IMG/VR virus record: IMGVR_UViG_3300009034_000198
Location: 1 to 24,976 of that record
Strand: one strand, 5' to 3'
DNA length: 24,976 nt
From: a virus
Shown: positions 1,714-24,020 of the stretch, one piece after another
Numbering within the stretch: the stretch's first letter is position 1
Layout of the letters: each line of letters starts with the position of its first letter
The notes under the pieces: generated by a model
The model's database searches: none
What the model was told of the DNA's origin: nothing
Seen by the model: only the letters and a program-made list of their open reading frames with translations
Position numbers and translations under genes: made by a program

Positions 1714-3471
1714 CTATCTCTCGCCGACCTCCTGGTATTTCAAAATCAGGCCCAGCAACTTAAATGGATTCTGGCCCGAAGGTTTGATTTTAAAGCTTTT
1801 TGCTAAATAATCTACGGGCAGCTCTCTGATTAAAATTTCTCTATCTCCAACCAAGTTTATGCTCCCCGCATTTTGCCAAGCTGGCTCATCATCTCTTTTG
1901 ATATAAAAACCTAAGACCCCTGATGCCTCTTGCCTTACATAGACTTGAATCAAGAGAAGTCTGTCGAATATCGCCAATCGTTTTTTGCTACCCAAATCAG
2001 TCTCGAGAACTTGGTAGCCGGTATAATCTTGACCTGCATCTTTTTCGGAAGCATTCAGGCGATAAATTTTGCCATCATAACTTCCCATAAGGTCAATTGG
2101 GAAAGCCGCCAAGCCCGCTCGGTATTTCCAAGAAGGCCACCACCAATCAAGCCAGTTACTAAAGATCGAAAGCGATGACCAATCATAACCTGTTTCTGTT
2201 TCGTAATATCCAAGGGATGCAACTTCCATGTCTTCGACGGCCCAATTATTTCTCGCAAAGTCCAAATCATAGATTAGAATTTTATTATTCACCTGGCTAT
2301 CTGCATAGGGAATTGCCCATAGGATCTGATTTAATTCTTCAACCAAAGTGACTTGGATATACTGCTCAAAGTTCGGGTTTATGTTTTTGACTATCGGGTC
2401 TATCGCGCCAGATATCATCGTGGCTACCAAACCGTTGAAAAACCTAAAAGTATTATCTCCCGAATAAAAATAAGTTCCCTCCTCCATTTCAAGAATAGAA
2501 TCGGGAGCATTAGTTCCTATCCCATCAATGATCAGCTTTTTATTAAAAACCATCGTTCCCTCTACATTCCATGCCCTGACTATTGCCCTGTTTTTAAAAA
2601 TTAACAGATTTCCTTTGTAAGTAGCATTCCCCTGCAAAATCCCTGTTCCCTCATTCACTTCCATGGCCCCTGCATCCGAGCCGGACCCTCCCCAATCGGT
2701 CTCATCTGCCAAGCCCGACCATCTGATTCTAAAAGGGTATTCCGTTCCGTTTTCGATTGTTCTTATCAACAAAACCCTTTCGTTGTAGTCGTAAAGAAAA
2801 GTCGCCTTGTAAGGACAGTTCAAATCTGAAACCTGCCCGGCCCCCTGCCAGATAATGATAGGGTCGCTTCCCCTGTTCGTTGCCAATACTTTCTCGTGAA
2901 ACACTATTACTGACCAATAATCGAGATCAGTCCCAGAAAAAGTCTTTCTTGCCACATAAGCAGAACCCGAACAGGTCTCGGCATCGGTCTTGAGGTATAA
3001 AACCGTCTCCGACTCGATTGAATCTACCTCGTACCAGGTCGAACCTGAATGAACCTCCCCTGCGCCTATCTTCAGGAAGTCTCCTATCTTGAGGTTGGTC
3101 TGGAAAGCCGTTCCCGAGCCGATAACTTTTTTTAGGTTGGCTGCTTCAATGGTGATTGTGCCTGTATCGTAAAGTTTGTTTATGAAATTAAACCTGCTAT
3201 TCTGTATGTCCCTGTAAGCGACATCCCTTTTGGTGAATACCAAGAACCACCATTCGGTTGTGGTATCCTTAAAGTAATATTCCATATTAAGGATTTTATC
3301 AGGGAATTGATAGCTGAACTCCAATAGTCTCTTTTTGATGCGATGGACTTCTCCATCTTGCCAGATTACATCTTGACAGTCAGGACTATACGCTTCCTTT
3401 AGCAAGATTGAAGGGATGTCTTTTCTTAAACCAAGAATCGGTGAAAATATGCCATAACTTTTCATTTGCAT
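1714..3471 (-). CDS. Nozzle-like tail protein (beta-propeller, P22 gp10 / T7 gp12-like role)
   Basis: A 585-residue, beta-rich, Trp/Tyr/Asp-rich protein. It opens with an element (GIFSPILGLRKDIPSILL) typical of short-tail nozzle proteins, in which the N-terminus names the preceding connector face. Repeated blade-like segments follow, for example WWFLVFTK, DYWSVIVFHEKVLATN, YKGNLLIFKNRAIVRAW and TYFYSGDNTFRFFNG. Its size and place after adaptor and fibre genes fit the DNA-retaining nozzle of short-tailed phages. The start ATG overlaps the TAA of the fibre gene by 1 nt (TAATG). The exact family is uncertain because such proteins diverge fast. Confidence 0.72.
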   Translation of the reverse strand: MQMKSYGIFSPILGLRKDIPSILLKEAYSPDCQDVIWQDGEVHRIKKRLLEFSYQFPDKILNMEYYFKDTTTEWWFLVFTKRDVAYRDIQNSRFNFINKLYDTGTITIEAANLKKVIGSGTAFQTNLKIGDFLKIGAGEVHSGSTWYEVDSIESETVLYLKTDAETCSGSAYVARKTFSGTDLDYWSVIVFHEKVLATNRGSDPIIIWQGAGQVSDLNCPYKATFLYDYNERVLLIRTIENGTEYPFRIRWSGLADETDWGGSGSDAGAMEVNEGTGILQGNATYKGNLLIFKNRAIVRAWNVEGTMVFNKKLIIDGIGTNAPDSILEMEEGTYFYSGDNTFRFFNGLVATMISGAIDPIVKNINPNFEQYIQVTLVEELNQILWAIPYADSQVNNKILIYDLDFARNNWAVEDMEVASLGYYETETGYDWSSLSIFSNWLDWWWPSWKYRAGLAAFPIDLMGSYDGKIYRLNASEKDAGQDYTGYQVLETDLGSKKRLAIFDRLLLIQVYVRQEASGVLGFYIKRDDEPAWQNAGSINLVGDREILIRELPVDYLAKSFKIKPSGQNPFKLLGLILKYQEVGER

Positions 3472-4208
3472 TAACTCAATCTGTGGATAGACATATGAGA
3501 GTAGGTACCACTTTTTACACTTCTATCTACTCCAGCATTATGCCAGACCCATACTTCTATATAATCGTCAGCCGCCAAAGACAAAATATCTACAATACTA
3601 TTTGTCAGCCTAAAACCGCTTCCTGCGGAATTATGTACTGTTGAGTTGATAATTGTAGCGCCGTTTTTATAAATCCTTACATCCAAAACTTTAGGGGCCT
3701 CTATGGCCATGCTGATATGGGAATTAATCAAGTAATAGCCCGCCGCTTGTGCAGTAAATCTATAATTTGTCAAGCTATATTCATTCAATCCATCGTAACT
3801 TTCTACATCGAATTGCACCTTGGTCCAGTCTCCAGAGGAAATTGATTGGTCGCTACTTCTGTAAACTCTGCATTTGGAATTAAAAGCGCCAGGCTTAATA
3901 TTGCCTCCACTAGTTATCTGTATCTCATTTCCGTTTTCATCTCTGGCAAACAATTCTGCTACACCGCCCACATCTTTTGCATAAACAATTATCTTGTCTG
4001 CCTCAGCAGCCGGGGCAGAACCAGTGTTAAGTGGGGCTTTCTTTAGTCCTTCCTTGGTCTCAGAATCATCTGTCTTAAAACTGTAAATCCAGTTAGTGAG
4101 TCTTTCACAAATCGCATTTTTTAAATCCCTTATTCTACTTGCGCCCAAAGATGGCGATTCGCCAGTGTCTGGCGGTTTATCCACATCTAAATTTTTATTC
4201 CAAGCCAT
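3471..4208 (-). CDS. Receptor-binding fibre with C-terminal C1q/TNF-like jelly roll
   Basis: The N-terminal 40 residues (NLDVDKPPDTGESPSLGASR) look like a virion attachment segment. A middle element, AELFARDENGNEIQITSGG, is a recurrent motif of phage fibre and head-decoration proteins. Residues about 105-245 have the alternating strand pattern of a trimeric C1q-like domain: WTKVQFD, YRFTAQAAGYYLINSHISM, LDVRIYKNGA, DDYIEVWVWHNAG and the closing SHMSIHRLS. This is probably the host-recognition or decoration fibre. ATG follows AGGAGG. It lies between adaptor and nozzle genes. Confidence 0.75.
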   Translation of the reverse strand: MAWNKNLDVDKPPDTGESPSLGASRIRDLKNAICERLTNWIYSFKTDDSETKEGLKKAPLNTGSAPAAEADKIIVYAKDVGGVAELFARDENGNEIQITSGGNIKPGAFNSKCRVYRSSDQSISSGDWTKVQFDVESYDGLNEYSLTNYRFTAQAAGYYLINSHISMAIEAPKVLDVRIYKNGATIINSTVHNSAGSGFRLTNSIVDILSLAADDYIEVWVWHNAGVDRSVKSGTYSHMSIHRLS

Positions 4209-13893: not shown

Positions 13894-14205
13894 TTACCTG
13901 TTCTCACCTCCCTTCAACCAATTTTTAACTTCTGGATGTCTTCTGCGAAATTCTCGCCGGCCCAATATATTCCTTTGAATATGATGTTTGAGGCATAATG
14001 GCATCAGGTTCTTTTCGGAATCCGCCCCTCCGGCACCTCGGCTCCTGATGTGATGGGGAGTGCTCTTCTTGCCACAGATAATACATCTGGGATATTTTTT
14101 CTTAAATTTCATTATTGCCCTTAAGTCTCTCTTTCTGGTCCTGTAAAGTTGTTTCTCTTTTGGGTGTGGATGGAATTCCTTACTCAGGTTTATAATTTTG
14201 CCCAT
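13894..14205 (-). CDS. HNH endonuclease
   Basis: A 103-residue protein with a beta-beta-alpha-metal nuclease core: CIIC (41-44), the catalytic HH (51-52) in STPHHIRSRG, N66 in DSEKNLMPLC, and the second zinc pair C71 / HH 74-75 in LCLKHH. The N-terminus is basic. Small HNH proteins in tailed phages often act in genome packaging with the terminase, or nick DNA near replication. It overlaps the resolvase gene by 26 nt and is the last gene of the middle operon, facing the terminase region. Confidence 0.88.
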   Translation of the reverse strand: MGKIINLSKEFHPHPKEKQLYRTRKRDLRAIMKFKKKYPRCIICGKKSTPHHIRSRGAGGADSEKNLMPLCLKHHIQRNILGRREFRRRHPEVKNWLKGGENR

Positions 14206-14728
14206 GTTGCCTCTCTATAACGCTTTTTAATACTTCCCTTTCGTATTTCTTAAGAGCCGATACAAATTTTTCGTCGTTTCTTAACATAACCATTTCGCCA
14301 ATTTTGGCCAGAGCAAATGCCTCAACTATATGCTCGCTTTCAGATATTCCCCATTTTTGGTACGCGCTTCTTAAAATTTCGCTTTTTTTGCTTCTACCGG
14401 AACCTGTAATAAACTTTTTCAAAGTGCTTGGAGCGACAAGAACTAATGGCATTTGATTGATATAGAACATCCTTTTGAGGATAGCTACCAGTTCAATATT
14501 GACAATTCCGCGGGCATAGTAGGGAGAATACACAAATTCCTCCATAACGGCCAAGTCAATTTTCACCAACAATTTGTCCTTAATTTTTTCCTCTATTTCC
14601 AAAAACTTTTTGATTCCCTCTTCTTTTGGCGTGATCTCGCCACATACATCTTTGATTAGTATGCTTTCACTATCTAAGATATAAAAACCAGTACAGGATA
14701 GCGCCGGGTCTATGCCTAAAACTCTCAT
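14180..14728 (-). CDS. ruvC: RuvC-type Holliday junction resolvase
   Basis: Resolves four-way junctions in replicated or recombined phage DNA. From ATG 14726-14728 (AGAGGG site, 6 nt spacing) the protein has 182 residues. Motif LGIDPALSCTGF places Asp at position 7, as in cellular RuvC. A conserved Glu follows in VMEEFVYSPYYARG (62-75). Then APSTLKKFITGSGRSKK (99-115) and SEHIVEAFALAKIG (131-144), where H133 and E136 stand where Thermus-type RuvC has H-x2-D, so the last acid is Glu instead of Asp. The 182-residue length is normal. Confidence 0.85.
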   Translation of the reverse strand: MRVLGIDPALSCTGFYILDSESILIKDVCGEITPKEEGIKKFLEIEEKIKDKLLVKIDLAVMEEFVYSPYYARGIVNIELVAILKRMFYINQMPLVLVAPSTLKKFITGSGRSKKSEILRSAYQKWGISESEHIVEAFALAKIGEMVMLRNDEKFVSALKKYEREVLKSVIERQHGQNYKPE

Positions 14729-14744
14729 TTTCAACCCTCTTGTC

Positions 14745-15456: not shown

Positions 15457-15912
15457 TCATTGCCCGCATCCTTCTTCGCATCCTTCATAACAGGGCTTAC
15501 CCTGGGACATATTTACTAATGTTTTATTGTCCGGGAAAGGCAAATTGTATAATTCGCATATTTGTTTTAGGATGGGCGCTCCATAATTTGCGTAATTATC
15601 CCAGTTGATTTTATCCTCATCGTCGAGCAACCATATCCAGGCATTCATTTTCTCTATGCTACGAATTGCCGACAGGCCTCGATGATTTTCCGCCTTTCCT
15701 AAAGCGAACTCCATATATTCTCTTATTTCTTTAATTACATTTTCTCTTGTTGCTTTAATGTATATTTTGTTCCATTGTTCTGCTGTCGTCCCCTCTTTCA
15801 AAAATTCTTTCGCTTCCTCATAGGGCAAAAAATTTATAAGAGCTTCTGCGTCAAAACTAAGTGGAGATTTTGGGTTTCTGCATCTTTCCAAAATTTCTTT
15901 AATTGTTTTCAT
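15457..15912 (-). CDS. Conserved-looking phage hypothetical protein
   Basis: A 151-residue, mainly helical protein. The segment GLSAIRSIEKMNAWIWLLDD, followed by YANYGAPILKQICELYNLPFP, has a motif-like pattern I associate with uncharacterised phage proteins; the C-terminus is Cys-rich (CYEGCEEGCGQ) and may bind metal. ATG follows GGAGGGG and overlaps the previous stop by 4 nt, so the two genes are translated together. Confidence 0.7.
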   Translation of the reverse strand: MKTIKEILERCRNPKSPLSFDAEALINFLPYEEAKEFLKEGTTAEQWNKIYIKATRENVIKEIREYMEFALGKAENHRGLSAIRSIEKMNAWIWLLDDEDKINWDNYANYGAPILKQICELYNLPFPDNKTLVNMSQGKPCYEGCEEGCGQ

Positions 15913-16154
15913 TTCCCCTCCTTCGCCCTTATCGGTTTAGCAGATGCGATGGCGGTGGCTAATTGTTCCCATAAATCAGGATGAACTTTCTCCATATATT
16001 GCCTAACATACCTTTGTGTAATTCTTATTATTTCCTTCTCATCAATCTCCACTAACTCTGGAAGTTTAGCAAGGATGGCTTTAACACAATTCTTAATATC
16101 CCCCTTAGCCCACCCTTCAATAATAATCCATTCCAGCTCTCTCTTTGCATCCAT
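15909..16154 (-). CDS. Small helical hypothetical protein
   Basis: An 81-residue product (DAKRELEWIIIEGWAKGD at the start, KEIIRITQRYVRQYMEKVHP in the middle). ATG 16152-16154 has a good GGAGG site; the frame is open upstream to a TTG at 16193 but that part overlaps the promoter of the plus-strand RNA and lacks a ribosome site. Function unknown. Confidence 0.68.
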   Translation of the reverse strand: MDAKRELEWIIIEGWAKGDIKNCVKAILAKLPELVEIDEKEIIRITQRYVRQYMEKVHPDLWEQLATAIASAKPIRAKEGK

Positions 16155-16175: not shown

Positions 16176-16204
16176 TTGACAATTTTTTCCCAAAGCGATA
16201 TGTT
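16176..16204 (+). promoter_or_regulatory. Sigma70 promoter on the plus strand, for the structured RNA
   Basis: TTGACA (16176-16181, perfect), a 17-nt spacer, TATGTT (16199-16204, matching the key positions 1, 2, 3 and 6). The expected start is about 16209-16212, exactly where the first helix of the RNA begins. No plus-strand open frame follows. Confidence 0.8.
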
Positions 16205-16207
16205 TAA

Positions 16208-16350
16208 GCTCGGGGTCGGGTGTGCCCCATAGGAGAAAAGTAAGTGCGAAAGCACGAAGGTACTCCGAGGACCCACGGCACTCCGCGGCAACGCGGACCC
16301 GTGGTACTCTGAGGACAATACCCTATGGAGAGCCCGGCCCCTTTTTGTTT
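16208..16350 (+). ncRNA. Structured small RNA of unknown family, three-way junction with two GNRA loops
   Basis: Visible helices: P1 GGGGUCGGG (16212-16220) with CCCGGCCCC (16333-16341), one G-U pair; P2 CCAUAG (16227-16232) with CUAUGG (16323-16328); P3 GUGC-GAAA-GCAC (16244-16255); P4 GGUA (16259-16262) with UACC (16319-16322), continued by CUCCGAG/CUCUGAG (one mismatch), P5 CCACGG/CCGUGG and P6 UCCGCG-GCAA-CGCGGA. UUUUUGUUU (16342-16350) closes it. The strand is plus: both loops are GNRA only in this sense, the G-U pair of P1 would be A-C on the other strand, and promoter and U-tract fit. UACUCCGAGGAC and UACUCUGAGGAC (16261 and 16305) face each other. I match it to no known family. Confidence 0.8.
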
Positions 16351-16356
16351 GGCCAT

Positions 16357-16623
16357 TTAGGTCTCCGTACCGAATAATTTTTTCGCCACTAATCCGATAT
16401 CATCAGGTCCTCTATAATATTCAATTTTCTGGGCAATCTTTTTCAAGTTTTCAGGAATACTGGTGCCTTCTTTAACTACCAAGTAAATTGGTTTATCCAA
16501 TAAAACTGCCAGCCCAAGTTCGAGGGCACATCTTTCATCTTTCAAAAAATTCTTCGTAACCAGAGCCATGTAAATATTGCTTTGAAGTAACTTTTCTGCT
16601 AATTGTTCATAATATCTACTCAT
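16357..16623 (-). CDS. Small TIR-like domain protein
   Basis: An 88-residue single domain. QSNIYMALVTKNFLKDERCA then LELGLAVLLDKPIYLVV (35-50) and ENLKKIAQKIEYYRG match the strand-helix order of short TIR / nucleoside-deoxyribosyltransferase-like folds: beta strand ending in T, helix, Glu (E35, catalytic position) in the LELG helix, then the KPIYLVV strand. Usual TIR domains are about 130 residues, so this is a minimal version. Possible roles are NAD-nucleotide processing or interference with host TIR signalling. It overlaps the zinc-ribbon gene context and faces the 3' end of the plus-strand RNA. Confidence 0.65.
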   Translation of the reverse strand: MSRYYEQLAEKLLQSNIYMALVTKNFLKDERCALELGLAVLLDKPIYLVVKEGTSIPENLKKIAQKIEYYRGPDDIGLVAKKLFGTET

Positions 16624-23824: not shown

Positions 23825-23840
23825 TTTACCTGCCTCCTAA

Positions 23841-23888
23841 AACAAAAAACCCTGACAAATCTTGTTTTTCAAGAAATGTCAGGGTCTT
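23841..23888 (-). terminator. Intrinsic terminator in a leader, next to a ribosome site
   Basis: On the minus strand ACCCTGACA (23877-23885), inner CTTG-AAAAA-CAAG hairpin, TGTCAGGGT (23849-23857), then TTTTTGTTTT. It ends 5 nt before AGGAGG of the next gene. Layout is the same as at 13697-13749. Confidence 0.85.
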
Positions 23889-23941
23889 ATCGTCTCACAA
23901 AGGTATCACAAAAGCGTCTACCTTAGCGACTGTTATTATCT

Positions 23942-23947
23942 ATTATA
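23942..23947 (-). promoter_or_regulatory. Candidate -10 box of the recombination operon
   Basis: A perfect TATAAT on the minus strand about 120 nt before the start of the helical gene, with a poor -35 (GTCTCA at 17 nt). Direct repeats AGATGTC stand upstream (about 23961 and 23981) and could bind an activator. In the same interval a 20-codon frame, MSGFRVSDVALVHIIDNNSR, starts at ATG 23984-23986 directly after AGGAG, so the region may instead be a translated leader. Confidence 0.4.
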
Positions 23948-24020
23948 TGTACAAGTGCGACATCTGAGACCCTAAATCCTGACATCTCCTGATATTCTCC
24001 TTATATATTCTCGCAAAATA

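Follow-up and report, generated by a model that had tools for sequence, protein, structure and literature searches.

A candidate orphan structured small RNA opposing the early genes of an uncultured tailed phage

Introduction

Does a short gap among the uniformly oriented genes of a phage harbor an independent RNA gene on the opposite strand and, if so, how might its product act? The question is raised by one IMG/VR record of about 24,977 bases, the whole of which was analyzed and is termed the window here. Its gene content is that of a tailed phage of the P22-portal type, and the minus strand carries every gene. An earlier note had proposed that one intergenic gap contains a complete plus-strand transcription unit that specifies a structured RNA of no recognized family.

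Results

The gap of 202 non-coding nt extends from the stop codon of the 88-aa gene to the likely ATG of the 81-aa gene (Table 1). Both this extent and the strands of the genes agree with the plus-strand unit among minus-strand genes that had been described, and the proposed promoter is present with the sequence and spacing given previously. Only five plus-strand promoter sites in 25 kb are as good as this one. The start of transcription had been placed near position 16210: a plus-strand start holds, but the exact position does not, as G16212 is the better choice. This residue is the first base of helix P1 and is located 8 nt past the −10 hexamer with 7 bases between. The putative unit has the arrangement by which a phage-encoded small RNA is recognized in sequence, with its own promoter and a predicted intrinsic terminator around a short non-coding stretch. 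The 88-aa protein shows weak similarity to a TIR/nucleoside deoxyribosyltransferase-like fold (phrog_18163), and no matches to RNA-binding families were found among the genes that flank the small RNA.

Table 1. Positions of the predicted small RNA, its signals and helices, and genes of the window.
Feature	Position	Strand	Details
Sigma-70-type promoter	16176..16204	+	TTGACA (16176-16181), 17-nt spacer, TATGTT (16199-16204); 10/12 matches
Small RNA (predicted), ~135 nt	16212..16346	+	Putative start G16212; end in T-tract
P1, 5′ strand	16212..16221	+	GGGGUCGGGU; pair probabilities 0.96-1.00
P2, 5′ strand	16227..16233	+	CCAUAGG
P3 hairpin	16244..16255	+	GUGC-GAAA-GCAC, in three-way junction; GNRA loop plus-sense only
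Long arm	16259..16316	+	CUC-C-GAG/CUC-U-GAG mismatch helix, CCACGG/CCGUGG, UCCGCG-GCAA-CGCGGA; holds three GGYACTCYGMGG repeats
P2, 3′ strand	16322..16328	+	CCUAUGG
P1, 3′ strand, also terminator stem	16332..16341	+	GCCCGGCCCC; flush with T-tract
T-tract of predicted terminator	16342..16346	+	TTTTT, then GTTT; flush with P1
88-aa gene	16357..16623	-	Convergent with RNA; coding by codon usage
81-aa gene	15909..16154	-	Divergent from RNA; ATG 16154 with GGAGG ribosome site; coding by codon usage
P22-type portal; major head protein (Phage_capsid_3); large terminase; tail proteins		-	
Replication initiator; RuvC resolvase; Cas4-type exonuclease		-	

The plus-sense sequence was predicted to fold with −68.1 kcal/mol (z −4.9), and none of 200 shuffled sequences folded as well. 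In the predicted architecture, P1 leads through an internal loop to P2 and on to a three-way junction, from which emerge a GAAA hairpin and a long arm with a GCAA loop at its tip. P1 comprises 10 bp, including two U-G pairs that are possible only in the plus sense, and is followed directly by TTTTT, which matches the earlier description of a P1-closed three-way junction and U-tract; P2 comprises 7 bp. The two GNRA loops also exist only in the plus sense, as had been stated along with the G-U pairing. Most pair probabilities within the helices are 0.9-1.0; lower values were obtained at the outer end of the long arm and for the outer two pairs of the CCACGG/CCGUGG helix (0.77-0.89). The mismatch helix is formed by two 3-bp blocks that flank a C-U mismatch (0.9), and its outer GU/AC pairs are weak (0.4-0.7). 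When the fold was predicted at 50 degrees or above, this outer helix of the arm was redrawn and the remainder was kept.

Facing repeats within the arm had been said to pair with each other around one mismatch. The pairing stands, but the count of two copies does not: the 12-nt repeat is threefold (GGTACTCCGAGG at 16259, GGCACTCCGCGG at 16277 and GGTACTCTGAGG at 16303), and the copies are spaced by 18 and 26 nt in differing structural contexts. In place of the GACAA bulge envisaged previously, the prediction contains an internal loop in which GAC faces UA, plus single-stranded AAUAC at the junction. No evidence was found in favor of a designed binding site.

The frequency of this arrangement was assessed by scanning for a promoter with at least 9 of 12 matches and a helix of at least 8 bp that extends from near the start site and ends at a T-tract, thresholds that were chosen after the case had been seen yet are looser than the case itself. 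Exactly one instance was recovered in the window compared to an expectation of 0.007 (two in 300 Markov-resampled windows). When the T-tract was relaxed to four Ts, 1.19 Mb of sequence from TerL and portal relatives contained one weak case, the interior of which is open. The RNA stretch has a G+C content of 61-63% compared to 43% for the window, and the locus is both the highest-G+C and the best-folding 130-nt plus-strand stretch.

Searches with the Rfam 15 covariance models at the gathering cut-off returned zero families for the interval, in agreement with the statement that no family is recognized, and a known element on the minus strand was sought without success. At permissive thresholds the best match was to Flavi_ISFV_repeat_Rb (16.6 bits against a cut-off of 43; E 0.77). 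Neither a tRNA nor a tmRNA was detected, and blastn against phages, plasmids and E. coli genomes produced nothing beyond one chance 32-nt match. Exact DNA patterns for the repeats and the junction were searched in viral and genome sequences and yielded, among the matches listed, only chance matches and coding repeats. The repeat TACTCAGAGGACACGGCACTC (L260) looked similar, but forms part of a local repeat on a Desulfobacterales contig and was judged to be unrelated. When applied to the phage relatives and the listed viral pattern matches, a covariance model built on the single sequence identified only P1-like terminators (L144 and L074) and a weak match (L110). The same model found nothing in about 600-650 sampled bacterial genomes in total. 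These genomes were drawn in sets of 348, 297 and 249 from two Bacillota-type groups that share at least some members and from the phylum of a Desulfobacterales genome, and were picked without host identity. The RNA need not be unique, even though the databases sampled yielded no homolog.

L002 is among the nearest relatives found (portal 73%, terminase 79%), covers the late region only and ends 3 kb short of the small RNA locus. The other nearest relatives found are L269 (terminase 52%) and L003/L004 (portal 39%), the early regions of which have no detectable similarity to the window. A search for relatives via the proteins near the small RNA recovered none, and the portal produced only distant matches in host genomes (≤24%), in the Desulfobacterales phylum. 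In a distant relative (G002), the minus strand of L264 contains two long hairpins with a strong fold at 16330-16480 (z −6.1). Elsewhere in the window, the minus-strand product of 3471-4208 is similar to C1q and the BclA C-terminal region and probably serves in the tail or as head decoration.

A second element was noted on the minus strand at 13091-12941, immediately ahead of the terminase genes. It comprises two hairpins (z −7.2), each of which ends in U6. The layout is the same in L002 (L267, 592-720): in a comparison of base pairs made by eye on the alignment, the first hairpin has an inner stem of different sequence that still pairs, and the outermost G-C pair of this hairpin is replaced by A-U in L002. 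With a relative that carries compensatory changes, the 13.0-kb element appears better supported at the sequence level than the small RNA. The first hairpin also includes TTGAGT-17-TATACT, for which the counterpart in L002 is TTGAAT-17-TATACT. By analogy with lambda PR′-tR′, the element possibly is a late promoter with an immediate terminator, and this combination may perhaps indicate an antitermination switch. A structured leader with a terminator-like hairpin (ACCCTGACA...TGTCAGGGTTTTTT) at its end was observed separately on the minus strand at 23840-24000 (z −4.1) and has no Rfam match at gathering score.

The minus-strand interval 13894-14734 encodes a RuvC-type resolvase (14180-14734), then an overlapping 103-aa HNH protein (13894-14205). 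The latter was matched to the HNH portion of the IscB model (E 7e-6) and adjoins the RuvC protein, and for this reason an IscB omega RNA was considered. This assignment was rejected. An omega RNA is expected next to a co-directional IscB that has RuvC and HNH in one protein, whereas here two separate small phage proteins are encoded on the opposite strand, at a distance of about 1.5-2.3 kb. The resolvase and the HNH protein are judged to be ordinary phage nucleases.

Discussion

The independent plus-strand structured RNA that was proposed for this locus is supported by its base composition and fold, by its promoter and the geometry of its terminator, by the asymmetry between the strands, and by the absence of both a coding signal and an Rfam match. 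From this single sequence, it is likely that this is a real orphan small RNA of the phage, structured and without a known family. The orphan could also be chance or decaying sequence.

Two ORFs overlap the unit and invite the view that it is a short gene instead. The minus-strand ORF of 50 aa (16204-16356) is open, spans the gap and joins the stop codon upstream through a TAAATG junction; the plus-strand ORF of 22 aa, also open, starts with GTG at 16244 and is preceded by TAGGAG, which is like a ribosome site. Nevertheless, the codon-usage scores of both are about −0.28, which is well below every gene tested: the longer minus-strand genes reach 0.15 to 0.35, and values for the flanking pair are 0.31-0.35. 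A short gene on either strand is scarcely credible. In view of these scores, the U-G pairs and GNRA loops confined to the plus sense, and the plus-strand promoter and T-tract, our reading of the sequence is that the unit is plus-sense and does not encode a protein. It is improbable that its minus-sense counterpart acts as a structured spacer of the early mRNA, in the form of a processing or stabilizing hairpin, with a plus-strand promoter and T-tract that are coincidental. The minus strand is the reading direction of all genes and folds well too (−62 kcal/mol, z −3.2), but P1 is interrupted twice in this sense, the loops become UUUC and UUGC, and coincidence would have to produce the plus-strand arrangement of promoter, P1 and T-tract despite the low expectation per window given above. 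The long arm is also a large imperfect palindrome, parts of which are both direct and inverted repeats, and as such might function as DNA rather than RNA, either as a replication or packaging site or as the remnant of a mobile repeat. This is highly improbable: strand-specific RNA features are present, a second copy is absent from the contig, the locus has no iterons, the replication initiator gene is 3.4 kb off, and flanking duplications are unconvincing.

With regard to function, the chances appear even that the locus is a stand-alone phage small RNA gene whose product acts as a folded RNA, most likely via a protein. RNA polymerase would start at the dedicated sigma-70 promoter and oppose the early genes, the ~135-nt transcript would fold into one compact RNA with a three-way junction closed by P1, and transcription would stop at P1 plus the following U-tract acting as an intrinsic terminator. 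As both ends are within P1, the RNA should be stable. The long arm, through its internal loops, may then be recognized by a phage or host protein. We infer both transcription and mode of action, the latter from the anatomy of the predicted RNA. Action as a folded RNA is preferred over a base-pairing regulator because the predicted structure is nearly all paired and its few unpaired stretches were no more complementary to the starts of 42 phage genes than shuffled controls were. Protein binding is the preferred mechanism in the model, and cis-antisense action is next.

The antisense alternative has precedents in lambda OOP, aQ and P22 sar, which have terminators of their own. The RNA would similarly pair with the minus-strand early transcript across the gap and cause RNase III cleavage or the uncoupling of upstream from downstream genes. 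As it would be transcribed against the early genes, it would be fully complementary to any read-through transcript, and no minus-strand terminator was detected in the gap. All three precedents are small antisense RNAs that phages transcribe from dedicated promoters, and they are complementary to transcripts opposite (reviewed in PMC12197685). The predicted RNA would be like them in being a small phage RNA that has its own promoter and opposes neighboring genes. However, whereas OOP, aQ and sar overlap the target gene or its start, this RNA is predicted to adopt a single compact multi-branched fold and is wholly intergenic, overlapping neither flanking coding sequence. Complementarity is limited to the stretch of the minus transcript that lies between the genes, and it stops short of the downstream gene's ribosome site, which is ~45 nt from the RNA start; unlike with sar, the start codon remains unmasked. 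Overall, cis-antisense action is rather unlikely.

Other phage RNAs offer points of comparison. The pRNA of phi29 is of similar size, contains a three-way junction and serves a phi29-type ATPase motor. A packaging role, which the earlier note had entertained, is unsupported here. Instead of the packaging ATPase of a terminal-protein phage, the window encodes a conventional large terminase and a P22-type portal, which disfavor a phi29-type pRNA, and an Rfam match is absent. ToxI RNA has short internal repeats. A ToxI-mimic RNA of phage PhiTE is reported to feature in the evasion of ToxIN (PMC3475682). The predicted RNA shares with it the presence of short internal repeats in a phage RNA, but the spacing and contexts of the 12-nt repeats differ as outlined above, and a toxin partner is unsupported. 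Positive support is absent also for the decoy of host defense suggested previously. A new family of structured, protein-binding phage RNAs, for example one that, in infected cells, would capture or mimic a target of a host protein, is unlikely.

Characterized phage-encoded small RNAs are mostly those of a few model phages. Compact, equipped with its own signals for transcription and without a family, the predicted RNA from this uncultured lineage is a concrete candidate to test directly.
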